A DNA stretch of 53,754 bases from a virus, in IMG/VR virus record IMGVR_UViG_3300005290_000038, positions 1 through 53,754 of that record, one strand, 5' to 3'. Under the pieces are notes generated by a model. That model made no database searches, was not told the origin of the DNA, and was given only the letters and a program-made list of their open reading frames with translations. Shown here one piece after another: positions 29,062 through 48,927 of this stretch. Made by a program: the position numbers and the translations under genes. Within the stretch, counting starts at the first letter, position 1; every line of letters begins with the position of its first letter.

Positions 29062-29271
29062 ATGACTTTCAGTGAAGATGAGGTGTCCGCGATTATCGGA
29101 CAGCTGGATGAGCCCCGCTGGAACTGCGTACAGGGAAAGATCAACTCCGCGTTTCGGACCAAAGACGGAGAATGCCAGGTCTGCGACGGCAGCGGCTACA
29201 CGCTAGCCGAAGCAGGAGCCGCGCTGCTGGAGTTCATCAGACGACACGCCCAAAGGACCACGCAATCATGA
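29062..29271 (+). CDS. Zinc-knuckle protein, paralogue of upstream gene
   Basis: This 69-residue product includes CQVCDGSGYTLAEAGAALLE, clearly related to the second half of the preceding protein. The ATG at 29062 is preferred to one at 29035 because AGGGTGA lies just upstream and the extension overlaps the previous gene. Confidence 0.65.
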   Translation: MTFSEDEVSAIIGQLDEPRWNCVQGKINSAFRTKDGECQVCDGSGYTLAEAGAALLEFIRRHAQRTTQS

Positions 29272-29897
29272 CTCATCAGACTGCTCGGCTTCGTGTCTTG
29301 ATCGGGTGCGAGTTCTCGGGAATCGTGAGGGACGCGTTTATTAGCCGTGGCTGCGACGCGGTTTCCTGCGACCTGCTACCCACCGAACGCCCCGGCCCGC
29401 ATCTGCAATGCGACGTGCTGAGCGTACTTGACGACGGCTGGGATCTGCTCCTCGCCTTTCCGCCATGCACGCACCTGGCCGTCAGCGGCGCAAGGTGGTT
29501 CAAGGGCAAGCGCGACGAGCAACTGGCGGCGATTCAGTTTGTCGAGAGATTATGGAACGCTCCTGTACCACGAATCGCTATCGAGAATCCGATTGGCGTG
29601 CTGTCCACGCGGAGCGGCCTAGGAAGACCATCACAGATCGTGCAACCGTGGCAGCACGGACACGGCGAAGTCAAGGCTACCTGTCTCTGGCTGAAGAATC
29701 TGCCGTTGTTGCGGTCAACTAACATTGTCAGTGGCCGTCATGCCCGCGTCCACCGTGAGCCGCCGTCACCGAACAGGTGGAAGAATCGCAGTCGGACGCT
29801 GTCGGGAATTGCAGAAGCGTTGGCAGATCAGTACGGACTATTTATCAGCGATCGTCCGCGATACATGGAGAAATATGGACAATCCACACTTGGTTAA
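29268..29897 (+). CDS. C5 cytosine methyltransferase-like protein
   Basis: This 209-residue protein has a motif I-like VLIGCEFSG (about residues 9-17), motif IV FPPCTHLAVSG with the candidate catalytic Cys, and a motif VI-like RIAIENPIGVL (IENP instead of ENV). It would transfer a methyl group from S-adenosylmethionine to cytosine in DNA. It is short and lacks a clear target-recognition domain, so modified-base or non-catalytic roles are possible. The ATG overlaps the previous stop (ATGA). The last ~18 codons overlap or abut the HNH gene and may not be original. Confidence 0.7.
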   Translation: MTHQTARLRVLIGCEFSGIVRDAFISRGCDAVSCDLLPTERPGPHLQCDVLSVLDDGWDLLLAFPPCTHLAVSGARWFKGKRDEQLAAIQFVERLWNAPVPRIAIENPIGVLSTRSGLGRPSQIVQPWQHGHGEVKATCLWLKNLPLLRSTNIVSGRHARVHREPPSPNRWKNRSRTLSGIAEALADQYGLFISDRPRYMEKYGQSTLG

Positions 29898-41625: not shown

Positions 41626-41811
41626 ATGACAATGGTAACGATTCAGCAAGCCGCGACGAGGTTGGGGGTGAGCCACTGGCGAGTCAGGCAGGTGTACAAA
41701 GCTATGAAGATTTTACCAGTCGGTTATTATCGTAGCAGCCCGCTATTCAGTCTTGCCCAAGTGAGACAGATGCAAAAGCGAAACACTAAACCGGGGCCGC
41801 AACCGCGATGA
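41626..41811 (+). CDS. Excisionase/MerR-like HTH protein
   Basis: This 61-residue protein (MTMVTIQQAATRLGVSHWRV, RQVYKAMKILPVG, then a basic Pro-rich tail) matches the layout of the regulators at 27051 and 32684. It heads the replication module and may regulate it. ATG 41632 is an alternative start. Confidence 0.7.
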   Translation: MTMVTIQQAATRLGVSHWRVRQVYKAMKILPVGYYRSSPLFSLAQVRQMQKRNTKPGPQPR

Positions 41812-42830
41812 GTAATTTTTCCCATTCCATGCTGTCTCTCTATCGTAGCTGTCCGCTGAAATTCAGGTATCGCTACGAGGAACATCTAGCACCACTACAG
41901 CCACCGTCGCGACACGACATGGACTACGGGGCCGCGATTGATGCAGCGCTCAACGTTCTCTACAGTGAGAACGGAAGTATAAAGGCAGCTCACGAGGCGT
42001 TTGCTACGACGTACCCCGCCGACAGGTTTCCGAACCCGCTGCCGCTATGGTCGCAGGGCAAGTCATTCGCTAACGCCCTTGCTGCGATTCGCGGCTATGC
42101 CCAGCGTTGGCATGAGGAAGACCGTCACTGGAAAGTGTTGTTCATCCAAGACTACGTAAAGGAAGAAGGGGAGGACGCCCGCTCGGTCAAGCTGGACCTG
42201 ATAGTAGAAGACCAACGCGACGGACAGGTGTGGGCCGTGGACAACAAGACCACTGGCAAGTACTTGGATGCAAACTACTGGTCCGGGTTTGAGCCTGACA
42301 GTCAGATTCGTACCTATGTAGATCATACAAAACGCCGGTTCGGCCACTGTGGCGGCTTCATCATCAACGCCATCAGCTTTAAACACCGGAGCAAGGCTTA
42401 CACGCCCCGGCAGGGGCCAAACAAGGGTATCCAGCAGCCTGCCGGCGACTGGTACGACTTTGGCCGCGTAGCCTTCAATCCCAACAGCGAATGCCTGAAG
42501 CTGGAAACCGATAACGAAGCTTACTGGATAGCTCGTATTAAGCAGGACCGGGAGTCGGGCCTGTGGGGCTACAACACAGATCAATGCCGTCGCGGAGGAG
42601 TGGAATGCGAATACCTGAAACTATGTGAGGCGGGCTATTCGCTGCCGACTGACGAGGAGTTAATACTCTCCTACTATCGCCGCCAGTGTCCGAGAGTCCT
42701 TGAGGCCGGGCGCTGCTTGCTGGACATAGACCACGAGGGCCAGTGCGACCCGGTAGACCATACTGTCAAAACTGATTACATCGTCAGAACCGACGACGAG
42801 GAAGAAATCGAAAATGCCATCAGCGACTAA
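41808..42830 (+). CDS. PD-(D/E)XK nuclease, RecB/Cas4-like
   Basis: This 340-residue protein begins FSHSMLSLYRSCPLKFRYRY, the usual start of RecB-family phage nucleases. Catalytic elements are SVKLDLIV (Asp 130), VWAVDNKTTG (Asp 145, Lys 147) and QIRTY (Gln 166). The C-terminal CRRGGVECEYLKLC, with Cys 15, could hold an iron-sulfur cluster. It overlaps the Sak4-like gene, and such pairs act in phage recombination. Confidence 0.88.
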   Translation: MSNFSHSMLSLYRSCPLKFRYRYEEHLAPLQPPSRHDMDYGAAIDAALNVLYSENGSIKAAHEAFATTYPADRFPNPLPLWSQGKSFANALAAIRGYAQRWHEEDRHWKVLFIQDYVKEEGEDARSVKLDLIVEDQRDGQVWAVDNKTTGKYLDANYWSGFEPDSQIRTYVDHTKRRFGHCGGFIINAISFKHRSKAYTPRQGPNKGIQQPAGDWYDFGRVAFNPNSECLKLETDNEAYWIARIKQDRESGLWGYNTDQCRRGGVECEYLKLCEAGYSLPTDEELILSYYRRQCPRVLEAGRCLLDIDHEGQCDPVDHTVKTDYIVRTDDEEEIENAISD

Positions 42831-43755
42831 CCTAACAAAACCCAACTACGCCATCATTTTCATCGGCCCTCCCGGCAGCGGTAAGACGCGCTGTGGCCTG
42901 TCGTTCCCGAAGGTTATGGCTATTACTTTTGACCCGGTAGGACTGGAGATTATCTTTGACCCGGCGAATGAGAAACTGCGCGAAAATCTGGTCTGGACCG
43001 TGCCGATGAACGGGTTGCCACTGGAGCAGGTATTTCGCGTCACCGATGAGCCGAGTGAAGACAGCCTCTACGGCGCTATCGCCCTCGCCAAAAAGATGCG
43101 CCAAGAGGGCAAGGTGGAAACCGTCCTGCTTGACGGAACCAGCTACCTTGCCGATCTCAAGCAGGAGCATGTAGCTGACGACCGGGACACACGGGCCATG
43201 TATCGCCAACTGGGCGGATACTTGTCACAGTTCTTTCTTCAGAACTTTCTCCCGCTTGCTGTGCGGCACAATCTAAACGTGATTATGACCTGTCATCTTC
43301 AGCGGGAGAGCAATGAGGCGGTGGAAGGGATCAGCGACCCGTCGCGCAAGGAATACGGCACCAGTAAGCCGCTGATCAATCAGAACAGCAATCTCAGCGC
43401 ACAGATAGTTGGCGGCTTCCGTCACAAAATCAGCGGAATGCCGAGTGCGGTTGTCTATCTCAACCATCGGCTCGAAGCGGCGACGGCAAAAGATGTTGAG
43501 ACTGCGAAGAAAAATGGGCAAGCACTAGCCGAAGGCGCTGAAATCCTCAACTACTACGCCTACTGCCAGAAAACCTACGTGAAAGAGTGGGAGTCTGAGG
43601 TAGACGCAAAGAATCGCTATGGACTTGGGCCGCGCATCAAGATGACCAACGGCAACTTTTACAAAACGCTCCTGAGTAAACTGCCCAAGTCCAACGACAA
43701 CAACGGAGCACAACCTGGCGCTGAGGCGCAACTAACTGCTAAAGGAGCTAAGTAA
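42814..43755 (+). CDS. Sak4-like RecA-type ATPase (AAA_24)
   Basis: This 313-residue protein has a Walker A GPPGSGKT at residues 18-25 and a Walker B-like VETVLLDGTSYL near residues 100-111. A NVIMTCHLQ sensor strand near residue 155 follows. This matches phage single-strand annealing or recombination ATPases. It is encoded between a RecB-like nuclease and a probable SSB, as usual for Sak4. Confidence 0.85.
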   Translation: MPSATNLTKPNYAIIFIGPPGSGKTRCGLSFPKVMAITFDPVGLEIIFDPANEKLRENLVWTVPMNGLPLEQVFRVTDEPSEDSLYGAIALAKKMRQEGKVETVLLDGTSYLADLKQEHVADDRDTRAMYRQLGGYLSQFFLQNFLPLAVRHNLNVIMTCHLQRESNEAVEGISDPSRKEYGTSKPLINQNSNLSAQIVGGFRHKISGMPSAVVYLNHRLEAATAKDVETAKKNGQALAEGAEILNYYAYCQKTYVKEWESEVDAKNRYGLGPRIKMTNGNFYKTLLSKLPKSNDNNGAQPGAEAQLTAKGAK

Positions 43756-45146: not shown

Positions 45147-45405
45147 CTTATACGAACTGGCAACCAACGCACGGCTCAACCATTGGCCTCCGCATCTGGG
45201 CGTGACCACTAACGCGGAGAAGATCGAGTATCTGGCGCAGCGGTTACAAGAGGCTGGTGATGTGGTCCAAAACGATGACTTGCTAGACCGGCAGACAGCC
45301 ATGCAAGAAGAGATCGCCATGCACGAGCAAACGATTGAAGGGCTGCGAGCTGAGATCTTCGACCTTAACGAAGTGATCAAGAAGCTAGAGACCAAGCAGC
45401 AATGA
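45136..45405 (+). CDS. Coiled-coil early protein, unknown
   Basis: This 89-residue protein has a short N-terminal domain and a long coiled coil (QEEIAMHEQTIEGLRAEIFD). It ends KKLETKQQ in a 4-nt overlap with the beta clamp gene. GAGGAGA precedes its start. Confidence 0.6.
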   Translation: MEIDLYELATNARLNHWPPHLGVTTNAEKIEYLAQRLQEAGDVVQNDDLLDRQTAMQEEIAMHEQTIEGLRAEIFDLNEVIKKLETKQQ

Positions 45406-46538
45406 TCACCGTCTCCCGCGCCGAACTCTCCGCCGAGCTAACCTTGCTGCAAAGTGTTGTCAGCAAGTACGCAACAATGCCGATACTTGATACCGTGCGA
45501 TTCGAGGCGAGCGATAAACTACGACTCACGGCTTCATCGATCGATGTAACGCTGACTACCGAGATCGCGCTGCCGGGTTTAGTGAACGAGTCTGAATCGT
45601 GGTGTGTGCCGATTAAGCCTCTAGTCCGACTGGTATCGCTGTTTGAGAAAGACGAAGTAGCGCTTGAACAGGTTGAGAACGGCCGGGTGCGCGTGCAGTG
45701 CGGACGATCAAAACACCTGTTGCCACTGCTTCCCGTTGCCGAGTTCCCTGAACCTGATGCGGTAGAAGCCGAGATGATTACAGTCAAAGGCAGGCTTCTT
45801 GCGGCGATTCTGAGCCATACGGCCTTTGCGGTGCTACCTCAGGCCGGGGACTTACGGCAGGGTGATCAAAAGTTTACCGGCTTACATCTGACACTGGCGA
45901 GTGGCACTCTGACCGTCGCGGCAACGAACAAACTGCGGCTGGCAATTGCACGAACGCGGCTTACAGGCAGCGACTTTGCCGTGATTCTGCCGCAATCGGT
46001 CATCGCCCCGCTGAAACGGTTTAATGATGATGACATACAGTTGGGGGTGTCAGCTAACGGCAATCTAATGACTGTCCGGGCTGGCAGTCGGCAGCTTACC
46101 GCACGGCTGATGGTGGACAAACCGCTTGACTGGTCCAGCCTGTTTCCTAAGTCTTACACGCACTCGATAGAGATTGATAGCGAGACTCTAAGTGGATCGC
46201 TGAAACGGGTGCTTGTGACCAGTGATGATCGGCCCTCATTCGTAGTTAACGGACTCAAATTTACGCTGGCTAACGACGAATTGAAGATCGAATCCCGTGA
46301 CGGCGACTACGGAAAATCAGATGAGTCCTTGCCGATCACGTGTCCATCGCTAAACGGTGAGCCGGTCTATGTCGGTGTTAATGGGCCACAGGTAGTTGAC
46401 TATCTGGCACTGGACATTGCCGGTGAGAAAACAAAGCTGGAAATCACCCCTGACATTCATGTGTTTCGGTTATCTCCGGTAACGCTGAAAGAGTTCGACT
46501 ACGAGTATCTGGTGAACACGATCAAGCTAAAATGGTAA
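45402..46538 (+). CDS. dnaN: DNA polymerase III beta sliding clamp
   Basis: This 378-residue protein has full bacterial clamp length (three domains). Clamp landmarks include LLQSVVSKYATMPILDTVRF, CGRSKHLLPLLPVAEFP, HTAFAVLPQAGDLRQGDQKF, GLHLTLASGTLTVAATNKLR, SRQLTARLMVDKPLDWSSLF and a final ITPDIHVFRLSPV. The clamp encircles DNA and tethers polymerase and repair enzymes. A phage-owned clamp without a phage DNA polymerase in the window suggests that it redirects the host replisome. The usual C-terminal MPM(R/K) is replaced by a divergent end (VNTIKLKW). Confidence 0.9.
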   Translation: MITVSRAELSAELTLLQSVVSKYATMPILDTVRFEASDKLRLTASSIDVTLTTEIALPGLVNESESWCVPIKPLVRLVSLFEKDEVALEQVENGRVRVQCGRSKHLLPLLPVAEFPEPDAVEAEMITVKGRLLAAILSHTAFAVLPQAGDLRQGDQKFTGLHLTLASGTLTVAATNKLRLAIARTRLTGSDFAVILPQSVIAPLKRFNDDDIQLGVSANGNLMTVRAGSRQLTARLMVDKPLDWSSLFPKSYTHSIEIDSETLSGSLKRVLVTSDDRPSFVVNGLKFTLANDELKIESRDGDYGKSDESLPITCPSLNGEPVYVGVNGPQVVDYLALDIAGEKTKLEITPDIHVFRLSPVTLKEFDYEYLVNTIKLKW

Positions 46539-46696
46539 GACCGCGCCTTTACATTGTTGCTCAACGCTTCCCCTGCCACGACGGCTCAAGGCCCTTGAGC
46601 TTTGCGATCTACTGTGGCCGGACGTTTCTGGCTTACTCGTGGTCACTCAGCGGAGCGTGGATTGCTCTCCAGTGGATACGGCGAGGATTACAATGA
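46532..46696 (+). CDS. Small protein between clamp and helicase, unknown
   Basis: This 54-codon frame starts inside the last codons of the clamp gene and ends in an ATGA overlap with the helicase-methyltransferase. The product is basic with aromatic residues (MVRPRLYIVAQRFPCHDGSR; SLSGAWIALQWIRRGLQ). Coupling on both sides supports translation. Confidence 0.55.
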   Translation: MVRPRLYIVAQRFPCHDGSRPLSFAIYCGRTFLAYSWSLSGAWIALQWIRRGLQ

Positions 46697-48927
46697 CCAC
46701 CAGCTATACAGACTTTCTCAACAACAAGCGCATCACGGTTGCTCCGTCTGGCTTCGACGTGGACACGCTCAACTCGATGCTGTTTGAGTTCCAGCGGGAC
46801 ATTGCTGAGTGGTCACTGCGACGTGGGAAATCTGCGATATTTGCTGACTGCGGGTTAGGCAAGACCCCAATGCAGTTAGCCTGGGCCGATCAGGTGGTAC
46901 CACGGTTAAACAAACCAGTGTTGATTCTTGCGCCACTAGCGGTGTCGCATCAAACGGTGAGAGAGGCAGACAAGTTTGGCATCGAGGCGTCGGTGGCCGT
47001 ATCAGGCGCCGATGTAAAAGGTGCCGGTATCTACGTGACCAACTATGAGAAGCTCCACCACTTTGATCCGTCTGTATTCGGCGGCGTGGTGCTGGATGAG
47101 TCATCGATCCTCAAGTCCTACAGCGGCGCTACCCGTAACGCGTTGGTCCAATCGTTTACCGCTACTCCGATGCGCCTTTGTGCCACAGCCACCCCTGCGC
47201 CAAACGATTACATGGAACTTGGCAATCACAGTGAGTTTCTAAGCATGTTGACCCGCACTGAAATGCTCTCTACGTTCTTTGTGCACGATGGCGGCGACAC
47301 GTCCAAGTGGCGGCTTAAGGGCCATGCCGAGGAAGAATACTGGAAGTGGGTTTGCGGTTGGGCGGTGATGCTGCGCAGACCATCAGATCTTGGCTACTCC
47401 GACGATGGATTTGCGCTGCCGCCACTCAACATGATCCATCACATTGTCAAGTCCGACAAACAGCCTGACGGATTCCTGTTCACGGTTGAGGCGAACACGC
47501 TTACTGAACGCCGGGACGCACGCCGTGATTCATTACGTGAACGGGTAGAGATGGCGGCACAGATCGTTGCCACAAAATCGGACGAGCCGTGGATGGTGTG
47601 GTGTGACCTGAACGCCGAGGCCGATCTGGCTGAGAGGTTAATACCCGGCGCATTGCAGGTTAGTGGGTCACAAAAGGATGAGGTTAAAGAGGAGCGCATG
47701 TTAGCGTTCTCATCCGGCGAACTGCACACGCTGGTCAGCAAGCCAAGTATCGCAGGTTACGGAATGAACTGGCAGCATTGTGCCAACGTGGCCTATGTGG
47801 GCCTGAGCGACAGTTACGAAAAGTTCTACCAGTCAATCCGCCGCTTCTGGCGCTTTGGACAAACACAGCCAGTCAACTGCCATGTGGTTACCGCAGAAGC
47901 CGAAGGGGCGGTGGTGCGCAACATCGAGCGCAAGGAAGCCGACGCGATGAACATGGCGCGAGAGATGGTGAAACACATGAGCGTGTACAACAAGGAGGCA
48001 TTGTGTGGAATGGGCCAGCACCGTGACGGCTACAAACAACAAGTAGAGCGCGGTGAAAACTGGACGCTGCATTTAGGTGACTGCGTAGATGTTACCCGAG
48101 AGCTTGAATCTGATTCCGTTCACTACTCAGTGTTCAGCCCGCCGTTTGCCTCGCTCTATACCTACTCGGCTTCGGAGCGCGACATGGGAAACGCTCGCAC
48201 TCACGCCGAGTTCTATCAGCATTTCGAGTTTCTGATTGCTGAACTGTATCGGATACTCATGCCGGGACGCTTACTCTCATTCCACTGCATGAACCTGCCA
48301 TCAAGCAAGGAGCGTGATGGGGTGATTGGCATCCACGACTTTCGCGGCGATCTGATTCGCATGTTCCGTGCGGCAGGGTTCATCTATCACAGCGAAGTGG
48401 TAATCTGGAAAGACCCGGTGACCGCGATGCAACGGACAAAGGCGTTGGGGTTGCTACATAAGCAGTTGAAGAAAGATAGCTGTATGTCACGGCAGGGCAT
48501 ACCCGATTACCTCGTCACCATGCGTAAGGCCGGCGAGAATCCTGAACGAGTGACGCATACCAATGAGTCGTTCCCTGTGTCGCTGTGGCAGCGTTACGCA
48601 TCCCCGGTCTGGCATGACATTAACCCGTCTGACACGTTACAGCGTGAATCAGCGCGAGAGGATAAGGACGAGCGCCACATCTGCCCGCTACAGCTGCAGG
48701 TGATCGAGCGGGCGATTGATCTATGGACCAACCCCGGCGATCTGGTGCTCAGTGCTTTCGCCGGTATCGGCAGCGAAGGCTACGTGGCCCTGCAGCGAGG
48801 GCGGCGGTTCATCGGCATAGAGCTAAAGGAGTCATATTTCAAGCAGGCCTGTGCGAACCTAGCTAACGCTGAAGCAGCAATGGGACAAACGACATTGTTC
48901 AGCGGGGTAGTAGCATGCAGCAGGTGA
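46693..48927 (+). CDS. SNF2-type helicase fused to DNA methyltransferase
   Basis: This 744-residue fusion protein starts at ATG 46693 (ATGA with the upstream gene); a longer frame from 46639 is spurious. Residues 25-440 form an SF2/SNF2 helicase: FQRDIAEWSLRRGKSAIFAD, Walker A GLGKT (54-58), DESS box (135-138), TATPAPNDYMELGNHSEFL, and a late IRRFWRFGQTQPVNCH motif VI. The C-terminal domain has HLGDCVDV, SPPF (about 481) and, later, LSAFAGIGSEG (about 688). Motif IV before motif I indicates a beta-class N4/N6 methyltransferase. QTTLF near the C-terminus resembles a beta-clamp-binding motif. Confidence 0.88.
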   Translation: MTTSYTDFLNNKRITVAPSGFDVDTLNSMLFEFQRDIAEWSLRRGKSAIFADCGLGKTPMQLAWADQVVPRLNKPVLILAPLAVSHQTVREADKFGIEASVAVSGADVKGAGIYVTNYEKLHHFDPSVFGGVVLDESSILKSYSGATRNALVQSFTATPMRLCATATPAPNDYMELGNHSEFLSMLTRTEMLSTFFVHDGGDTSKWRLKGHAEEEYWKWVCGWAVMLRRPSDLGYSDDGFALPPLNMIHHIVKSDKQPDGFLFTVEANTLTERRDARRDSLRERVEMAAQIVATKSDEPWMVWCDLNAEADLAERLIPGALQVSGSQKDEVKEERMLAFSSGELHTLVSKPSIAGYGMNWQHCANVAYVGLSDSYEKFYQSIRRFWRFGQTQPVNCHVVTAEAEGAVVRNIERKEADAMNMAREMVKHMSVYNKEALCGMGQHRDGYKQQVERGENWTLHLGDCVDVTRELESDSVHYSVFSPPFASLYTYSASERDMGNARTHAEFYQHFEFLIAELYRILMPGRLLSFHCMNLPSSKERDGVIGIHDFRGDLIRMFRAAGFIYHSEVVIWKDPVTAMQRTKALGLLHKQLKKDSCMSRQGIPDYLVTMRKAGENPERVTHTNESFPVSLWQRYASPVWHDINPSDTLQRESAREDKDERHICPLQLQVIERAIDLWTNPGDLVLSAFAGIGSEGYVALQRGRRFIGIELKESYFKQACANLANAEAAMGQTTLFSGVVACSR
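48886..48900 (+). other. Candidate beta-clamp-binding pentapeptide
   Basis: These codons encode QTTLF about ten residues before the C-terminus of the helicase-methyltransferase. The sequence fits the clamp-binding pattern Q-x-x-L-F, and the phage encodes its own clamp two genes upstream. Confidence 0.5.

Follow-up and report, generated by a model that had tools for sequence, protein, structure and literature searches.

Could a phage DNA methyltransferase be held on newly replicated DNA by a short peptide that docks in a sliding clamp and, if so, in whose clamp? The question is raised by the virus record IMGVR_UViG_3300005290_000038 of IMG/VR, a linear record of 53,754 bases, possibly a fragment, which was analyzed at full length and is called the window below. 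It encodes a beta sliding clamp followed by a helicase-methyltransferase with the pentapeptide QTTLF near its C terminus, and an initial annotation had proposed that this pentapeptide tethers the enzyme to the phage's own clamp. Our preferred reading, to which we give a probability of roughly 60%, is that the enzyme is a phage SNF2 translocase-methyltransferase whose C-terminal peptide docks in a sliding clamp, resulting in replication-coupled methylation. It builds on the domains of the protein, catalytic motifs that are intact, a tail that is predicted to be disordered and carries a conserved motif, the clamp genes in the neighborhood, and the retention of the tail through exchange of the methylase core. 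From these, we infer the further steps: that the peptide binds physically, which clamp it binds, when the enzyme acts relative to the fork, and that methylation protects from restriction. The features concerned are as follows.

45402-46538, + strand: beta sliding clamp (DNA polymerase III beta subunit), 378 amino acids (Pfam, PHROG, structure model)
46693-48927, + strand: helicase-methyltransferase, 744 amino acids (Pfam, PHROG, homolog-aligned start)
46804-47859, + strand: SNF2-type ATPase motor with GLGKT, LDESS, and YQSIRRFWRFGQ (Pfam SNF2-rel_dom and Helicase_C ranges, structure matches)
48121-48849, + strand: beta-class N6/N4 methyltransferase domain (PF01555, E value of 8.5e-18; match to the TTHA0409 methylase structure)
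48136-48147, + strand: catalytic motif IV, SPPF (sequence; invariant in 21 homologs)
48757-48774, + strand: S-adenosylmethionine (AdoMet) motif I, FAGIGS (F, G, I, G, and S invariant in the homolog alignment)
48886-48900, + strand: QTTLF, predicted sliding-clamp-binding motif, residues 732 to 736 of 744 (sequence, conservation)

The open reading frame of the enzyme was listed with a GTG start at 46639; ATG 46693 was preferred because it agrees better with the starts of 20 aligned homologs. Its N6_N4_Mtase match in Pfam was over the cut-off, those to SNF2 and Helicase_C were weak but consistent, and phrog_16 covered the protein nearly end to end (residues 23 to 755). The modeled motor resembles the structures of CSB, CHD1, Rad54, and RapA. 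AdoMet motif I comes after motif IV, and the methylase is therefore assigned the beta-class order. In the homolog alignment, the GxGK, DES, RxxR, SPPF, and GIGS columns are essentially invariant, showing that the catalytic motifs of both the ATPase and the methylase are intact. The protein thus combines an SNF2-type ATPase and an N6/N4 methylase in a single chain, as do the DarB-like dyads of PHROG 16. No nuclease domain was found in the chain, which matched only SNF2, Helicase_C, and N6_N4_Mtase and so does not qualify as a Type I, Type III, or ISP restriction enzyme.

The pentapeptide was described initially as the end of the methylase. It does lie in the C-terminal tail, at the coordinates given for it, but is followed by SGVVACSR, which places it eight residues before the C terminus. 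Model confidence (predicted local distance difference test [pLDDT]) is below 50 for residues 733 to 744, and QTTLF is thus predicted to sit in a flexible or disordered tail. The published bacterial beta-binding consensus is QL(S/D)LF (PMC4549789, PMC9690074), which QTTLF and the homologous tails match in a relaxed form.

Conservation of the motif was evaluated in a viral set of 79 loci, for which 74 full tails could be read. Qxx[LM]F occurred in 46 of the 74 tails, whereas 2000 rounds of shuffling gave 1.1 such tails on average and never more than 6; in the 31,264 residues of the protein bodies, it occurred only three times. The set was extended with cultured phages and with 80 loci found in genomes of bacteria and archaea across many phyla, giving 183 homologs from phages, prophages, and metagenome-assembled genomes. 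Here the motif was present in 94 of the 183 tails, against an average of 2.4 and at most 7 in shuffled tails. When the set was dereplicated at 80% identity, 44 of 109 tails retained it against a shuffled mean of 1.3, and the enrichment therefore does not derive from one clone counted repeatedly. Loss of the pentapeptide from close relatives that carry a clamp, which the initial annotation had named as the result that would speak against it, was not seen: every such homolog examined has QTTLF, QDTLF, or QTGLF.

Among 124 unique tails with [LMI]F, glutamine occupied position 1 in 80 (background, 7%), position 2 was free, and position 3 was T, S, or D in two-thirds. The linker from the fold to the glutamine varied from 13 to 22 residues, and 0 to 18 residues remained after the motif. 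Strong conservation was confined to positions 1, 4, and 5, the clamp-contact positions. As far as sequences can tell, variable spacing, a free position 2, and conserved positions 1 and 3 are properties of a docking peptide. Variants included a 6-mer form, QLSLGF, and a tryptophan form, QMTIW. A deep sister clade (L109 to L115, from phages of Pseudomonas, Mycobacterium, Paracoccus, Arthrobacter, Flavobacterium, and Rhizobium) has MPSLFD-type tails in the same place. Split helicases (L101, L107, and L108) often end in a P-x-[WF]-L type of sequence, such as MPCFL, VPSWL, or KPKFL.

The tail also outlasted changes in the enzyme that precedes it. In the pair L002 and L006, the helicase parts are 95% identical, the methylase cores 69% identical, and the tails unchanged; L003 and L004 repeat the pattern, with a different core and the helicase and tail kept. 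The alignments indicate that close relatives have swapped methylase cores and retained motor and tail. This would resemble specificity swapping, as expected if selection acts on the choice of target and delivery stays constant.

Several families of methylases served as controls. A within-locus comparison had only five members, three of them with the motif, and larger controls were then built. Of 18 other PF01555 methylases encoded in the same bacterial genomes, a small control, none had the motif, and a phage methylase family of about 480 amino acids (relatives of one in Microcystis phage Mae-JY04) had it in 3 of 72. Small CcrM-like phage methylases (L311 to L389, relatives of L140:16309-17103 in Rhizobium phage RHph_TM3_3_14B) gave Qxx[LM]F in 24 of 56 unique tails, mostly as Q[PG]DMF and often ending in AYxQ[PG]DMF. 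This form is close to QADMF, which we take to be the clamp motif of the Pol III alpha subunit. With low counts in two sets and high counts in the CcrM-like one, clamp-type tails are neither a property of the fold nor confined to the helicase fusion, and by its sequences, a second phage methylase family also has them.

In archaeal contexts, some helicase-methylases carry tails that resemble the PCNA-interacting peptide (PIP) box: QTQLQTFL (L155), QASLFTF (L117), QASLLSF (L228), and NSKLNDF (L164). Elsewhere, QxxLxxF was present in 12 of 182 tails. Scanning 394 genomes from the archaeal phylum concerned yielded one more genome, that of L228, which is 77 to 85% identical to L117. The idea that motif type tracks the clamp type of the host is suggestive; it was set aside, as at most three lineages bear on it.

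The other partner in the window is a complete clamp, as annotated initially. All three Pfam domains (DNA_pol3_beta, DNA_pol3_beta_2, and DNA_pol3_beta_3) were over the cut-off, phrog_947 matched with an E value of 1.2e-48, and the AlphaFold model (pLDDT of 85) was superposed by Foldseek on Escherichia coli beta with a template modeling (TM) score of 0.87. By sequence and model, it is full length, with three clamp domains and the full beta fold. Clamps of the soil phages (the window, L081, and L005) end in LVNTIKLKW or YINTVSLKNW, unlike the usual MPMRL end, which is part of the partner pocket. The helicase-methyltransferase had been placed two genes after the clamp; it is in fact the next sizeable gene on the same strand, after a gap of 154 bp.

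We sought clamp genes with a clamp profile in the fetched flanks of 110 dereplicated homologs. The window clamp alone and one broad alignment retrieved nothing usable as clamp relatives, whereas narrower alignments worked. A clamp gene was found near 14 of the 110, mostly directly adjacent. It lies upstream of the helicase-methylase in the window, L003, L004, and Paracoccus phage Pthi1 (L112), downstream in marine contigs (L045 and L118), and one gene further downstream in Arthrobacter phage Anekin. In Alteromonas phage XX1924 (L101), it is located between a separate methylase gene, whose product ends in QTELF, and the helicase gene; in this split arrangement, the motif is on the methylase and not on the helicase. 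The marine phages L056 and L118 have identical clamps (327 of 327 residues) and methylases that are 40% identical, both ending in QxxLF. Clamp presence changes 12 times on the homolog tree. The pairing is frequent but not obligatory: Rhizobium phage 16-3 and Aurantimonas phage AmM-1, for instance, have clamps with no helicase-methylase nearby. Erythrobacter phage R6L, published as having a methylase beside a "beta clamp," was not used: its methylase has a ParB-like N terminus and no helicase fusion, and the 151-amino-acid neighbor is unlike a full clamp.

Upstream of the clamp, two further genes complete the order exonuclease, Sak4-like gene, clamp, and helicase-methyltransferase on the + strand.

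41808-42830, + strand: PDDEXK (Cas4-like) exonuclease (profile matches; replication/recombination neighbor)
42814-43755, + strand: Sak4-like AAA protein (profile matches; replication/recombination neighbor)

A comparable exonuclease/Sak4-like module flanks the clamps of Rhizobium phages 16-3 and RHph_TM3_3_14B. In the window, which may be incomplete, and in its long relatives, including those of 62 to 74 kb, no DNA polymerase of family A, B, or C was found, and no match to a clamp loader was over the cut-off. The window clamp would thus need the host replisome both for its loading and as its working partner. For the Thermus Lalka phages, a clamp unaccompanied by a polymerase has been published (PMC11437467). 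The window also encodes a second DNA methyltransferase (29172-29897, phrog_757), with QYGLF 17 residues before its end.

A number of observations weigh against docking, or against docking on the phage clamp in particular. Relative to E. coli beta, the window clamp has changed Y323 to Q, M362 to N, P363 to T, H175 to L, and P242 to L, with T172, L177, and N320 among the residues kept; we take all eight positions to be partner-pocket residues. With the pocket partly altered, binding of QTTLF to this clamp should not be assumed. The canonical Q motif is missing from about half of the homologs (50 of 110 dereplicated rows), and two phages of the MPSLF clade (Pthi1 and Anekin) have that form of tail even though the gene adjoins their own clamp gene. 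Nor does the motif depend detectably on a phage clamp: it was present in 10 of 14 homologs with a clamp and 48 of 96 without (Fisher's P = 0.16), and an independent-pairs test on the tree was likewise not significant (median P = 0.25).

The proposed tether to the phage's own clamp is supported in part. The two genes are repeatedly neighbors, but the arrangement is not general, since a recognizable clamp was present in only 12 of 46 virus records, many of the others being fragments. Most copies of the motif would thus have to bind a host clamp. As most homologs have no phage clamp in reach and the motif is independent of it, the target of the tail is probably the sliding clamp in general, host or phage. 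In the soil group, members with a clamp have Q[TD]TLF or QTGLF and members without one have QEGLF, across two types of methylase core; the helicase backbones sort likewise, so common descent fits this pattern as well as coadaptation does.

Under the preferred reading of clamp docking, the flexible C-terminal peptide would insert into a sliding clamp's hydrophobic pocket, and the clamp, whether the host's or, in this phage, possibly its own, would keep the enzyme on double-stranded DNA that has just been replicated. The SNF2 motor would move it along the DNA, and the methylase would mark sites soon after the fork, ahead of host restriction enzymes that use unmodified sites. A broader proposal, in which a private clamp and a clamp-tethered translocating methylase together confer replication-coupled modification on phage and not host DNA, and in which clamp tethering is general among phage methyltransferases (at least two separate families, helicase fused and small CcrM-like), may be entertained only tentatively.

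The tail could also bind a clamp while serving mainly replication or repair, with the SNF2 motor remodeling forks or clearing proteins and methylation being secondary. Location in a module with the exonuclease and the Sak4-like protein would suit such a role, as would the lack of a recognizable polymerase, which makes handling of the host replisome matter. We consider it unlikely, given invariant methylase catalytic motifs, a core exchanged as if specificity were selected, and a motif that stays with the methylase where the genes are split. Docking on something other than a clamp, for example, the enzyme's own helicase domain or another phage protein, is improbable as well. It would accommodate the hydrophobic xxLF core, which is kept in 146 of 183 tails, including many that lack Q, against 40 when shuffled, and the MPSLF and VPTLF forms outside the classical consensus. 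However, Q at position 1, S, T, or D at position 3, and L-F at positions 4 and 5 fit the beta-binding consensus (PMC4549789, PMC9690074), variable linker length and low model confidence argue against internal docking, and clamp genes are repeatedly adjacent.

The same pocket is used by the toxin SocB to inhibit replication (PMC9690074), and most homologs have no phage clamp in their record, which raises the alternative that the tail competes with or blocks host replication proteins at the host clamp. This is very unlikely: phages without a recognizable polymerase of their own would need the host replisome, and a short blocking peptide would not require an intact methylase-helicase. Finally, a motif this short and degenerate might be expected to arise by chance. 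The size of its enrichment, the position-specific pattern of its conservation, and its scarcity in two of three control sets make that next to impossible, and its conservation refutes it.

If the tail does bind a clamp, phages would possess a prokaryotic counterpart of the DNMT1-PCNA pair, in which methylation follows the timing of replication instead of depending on diffusion. Such timing would help explain how replicating phage DNA outpaces restriction, would provide a role for the clamps of phages without recognizable polymerases, and would provide a simple sequence mark for spotting replication-coupled modification enzymes. The initial annotation knew of no such coupling. In the open-access literature, with subscription papers and preprints outside the search, we found no report of a prokaryotic or phage methylase with a clamp-binding motif; a tether between a DNA methyltransferase and a clamp is nevertheless known from DNMT1 and PCNA (PMC9690074).

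Among known systems, phages and mobile elements carry a DNA methylase-helicase dyad, described in a paper that nowhere mentions a clamp (PMC5512222). DarB of P1 and its relatives in PHROG 16 share the SWI2/SNF2 ATPase and DNA methylase, either fused in a single chain or encoded by neighboring genes. DarB is, however, a large virion protein, whereas the window protein has 744 amino acids, is encoded in the replication region and not among structural genes, and has a clamp-type tail. With bacterial beta-binding proteins (Pol III alpha with QADMF, MutS, TnsE, and transposases), it has in common a short Qxx(L/M)F peptide located at a flexible terminus; no DNA methyltransferase was found among them in the literature searched. 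Transposases are a precedent for mobile elements that exploit the host clamp (PMC4549789). The plasmid methylases M.EcoGIX and M.BceJIII are likewise mobile-element methylases linked to replication, and the authors of that work offer the speculation that the link is mediated by a host protein, for instance, the sliding clamp (PMC7736820). These plasmid enzymes differ in being single-strand specific and in working with Pol I, and no clamp-binding motif is reported in the text searched. DNMT1, tethered to PCNA by a short peptide, marks newly replicated DNA (PMC9690074); as a eukaryotic cytosine-5 maintenance enzyme of another methylase class with no SNF2 motor in its chain, it offers an analogy only. 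The helicase-methylase dyad, clamp-binding peptides, and phage clamps are thus each already known, and the closest functional analog of the proposed tether is DNMT1 with PCNA.

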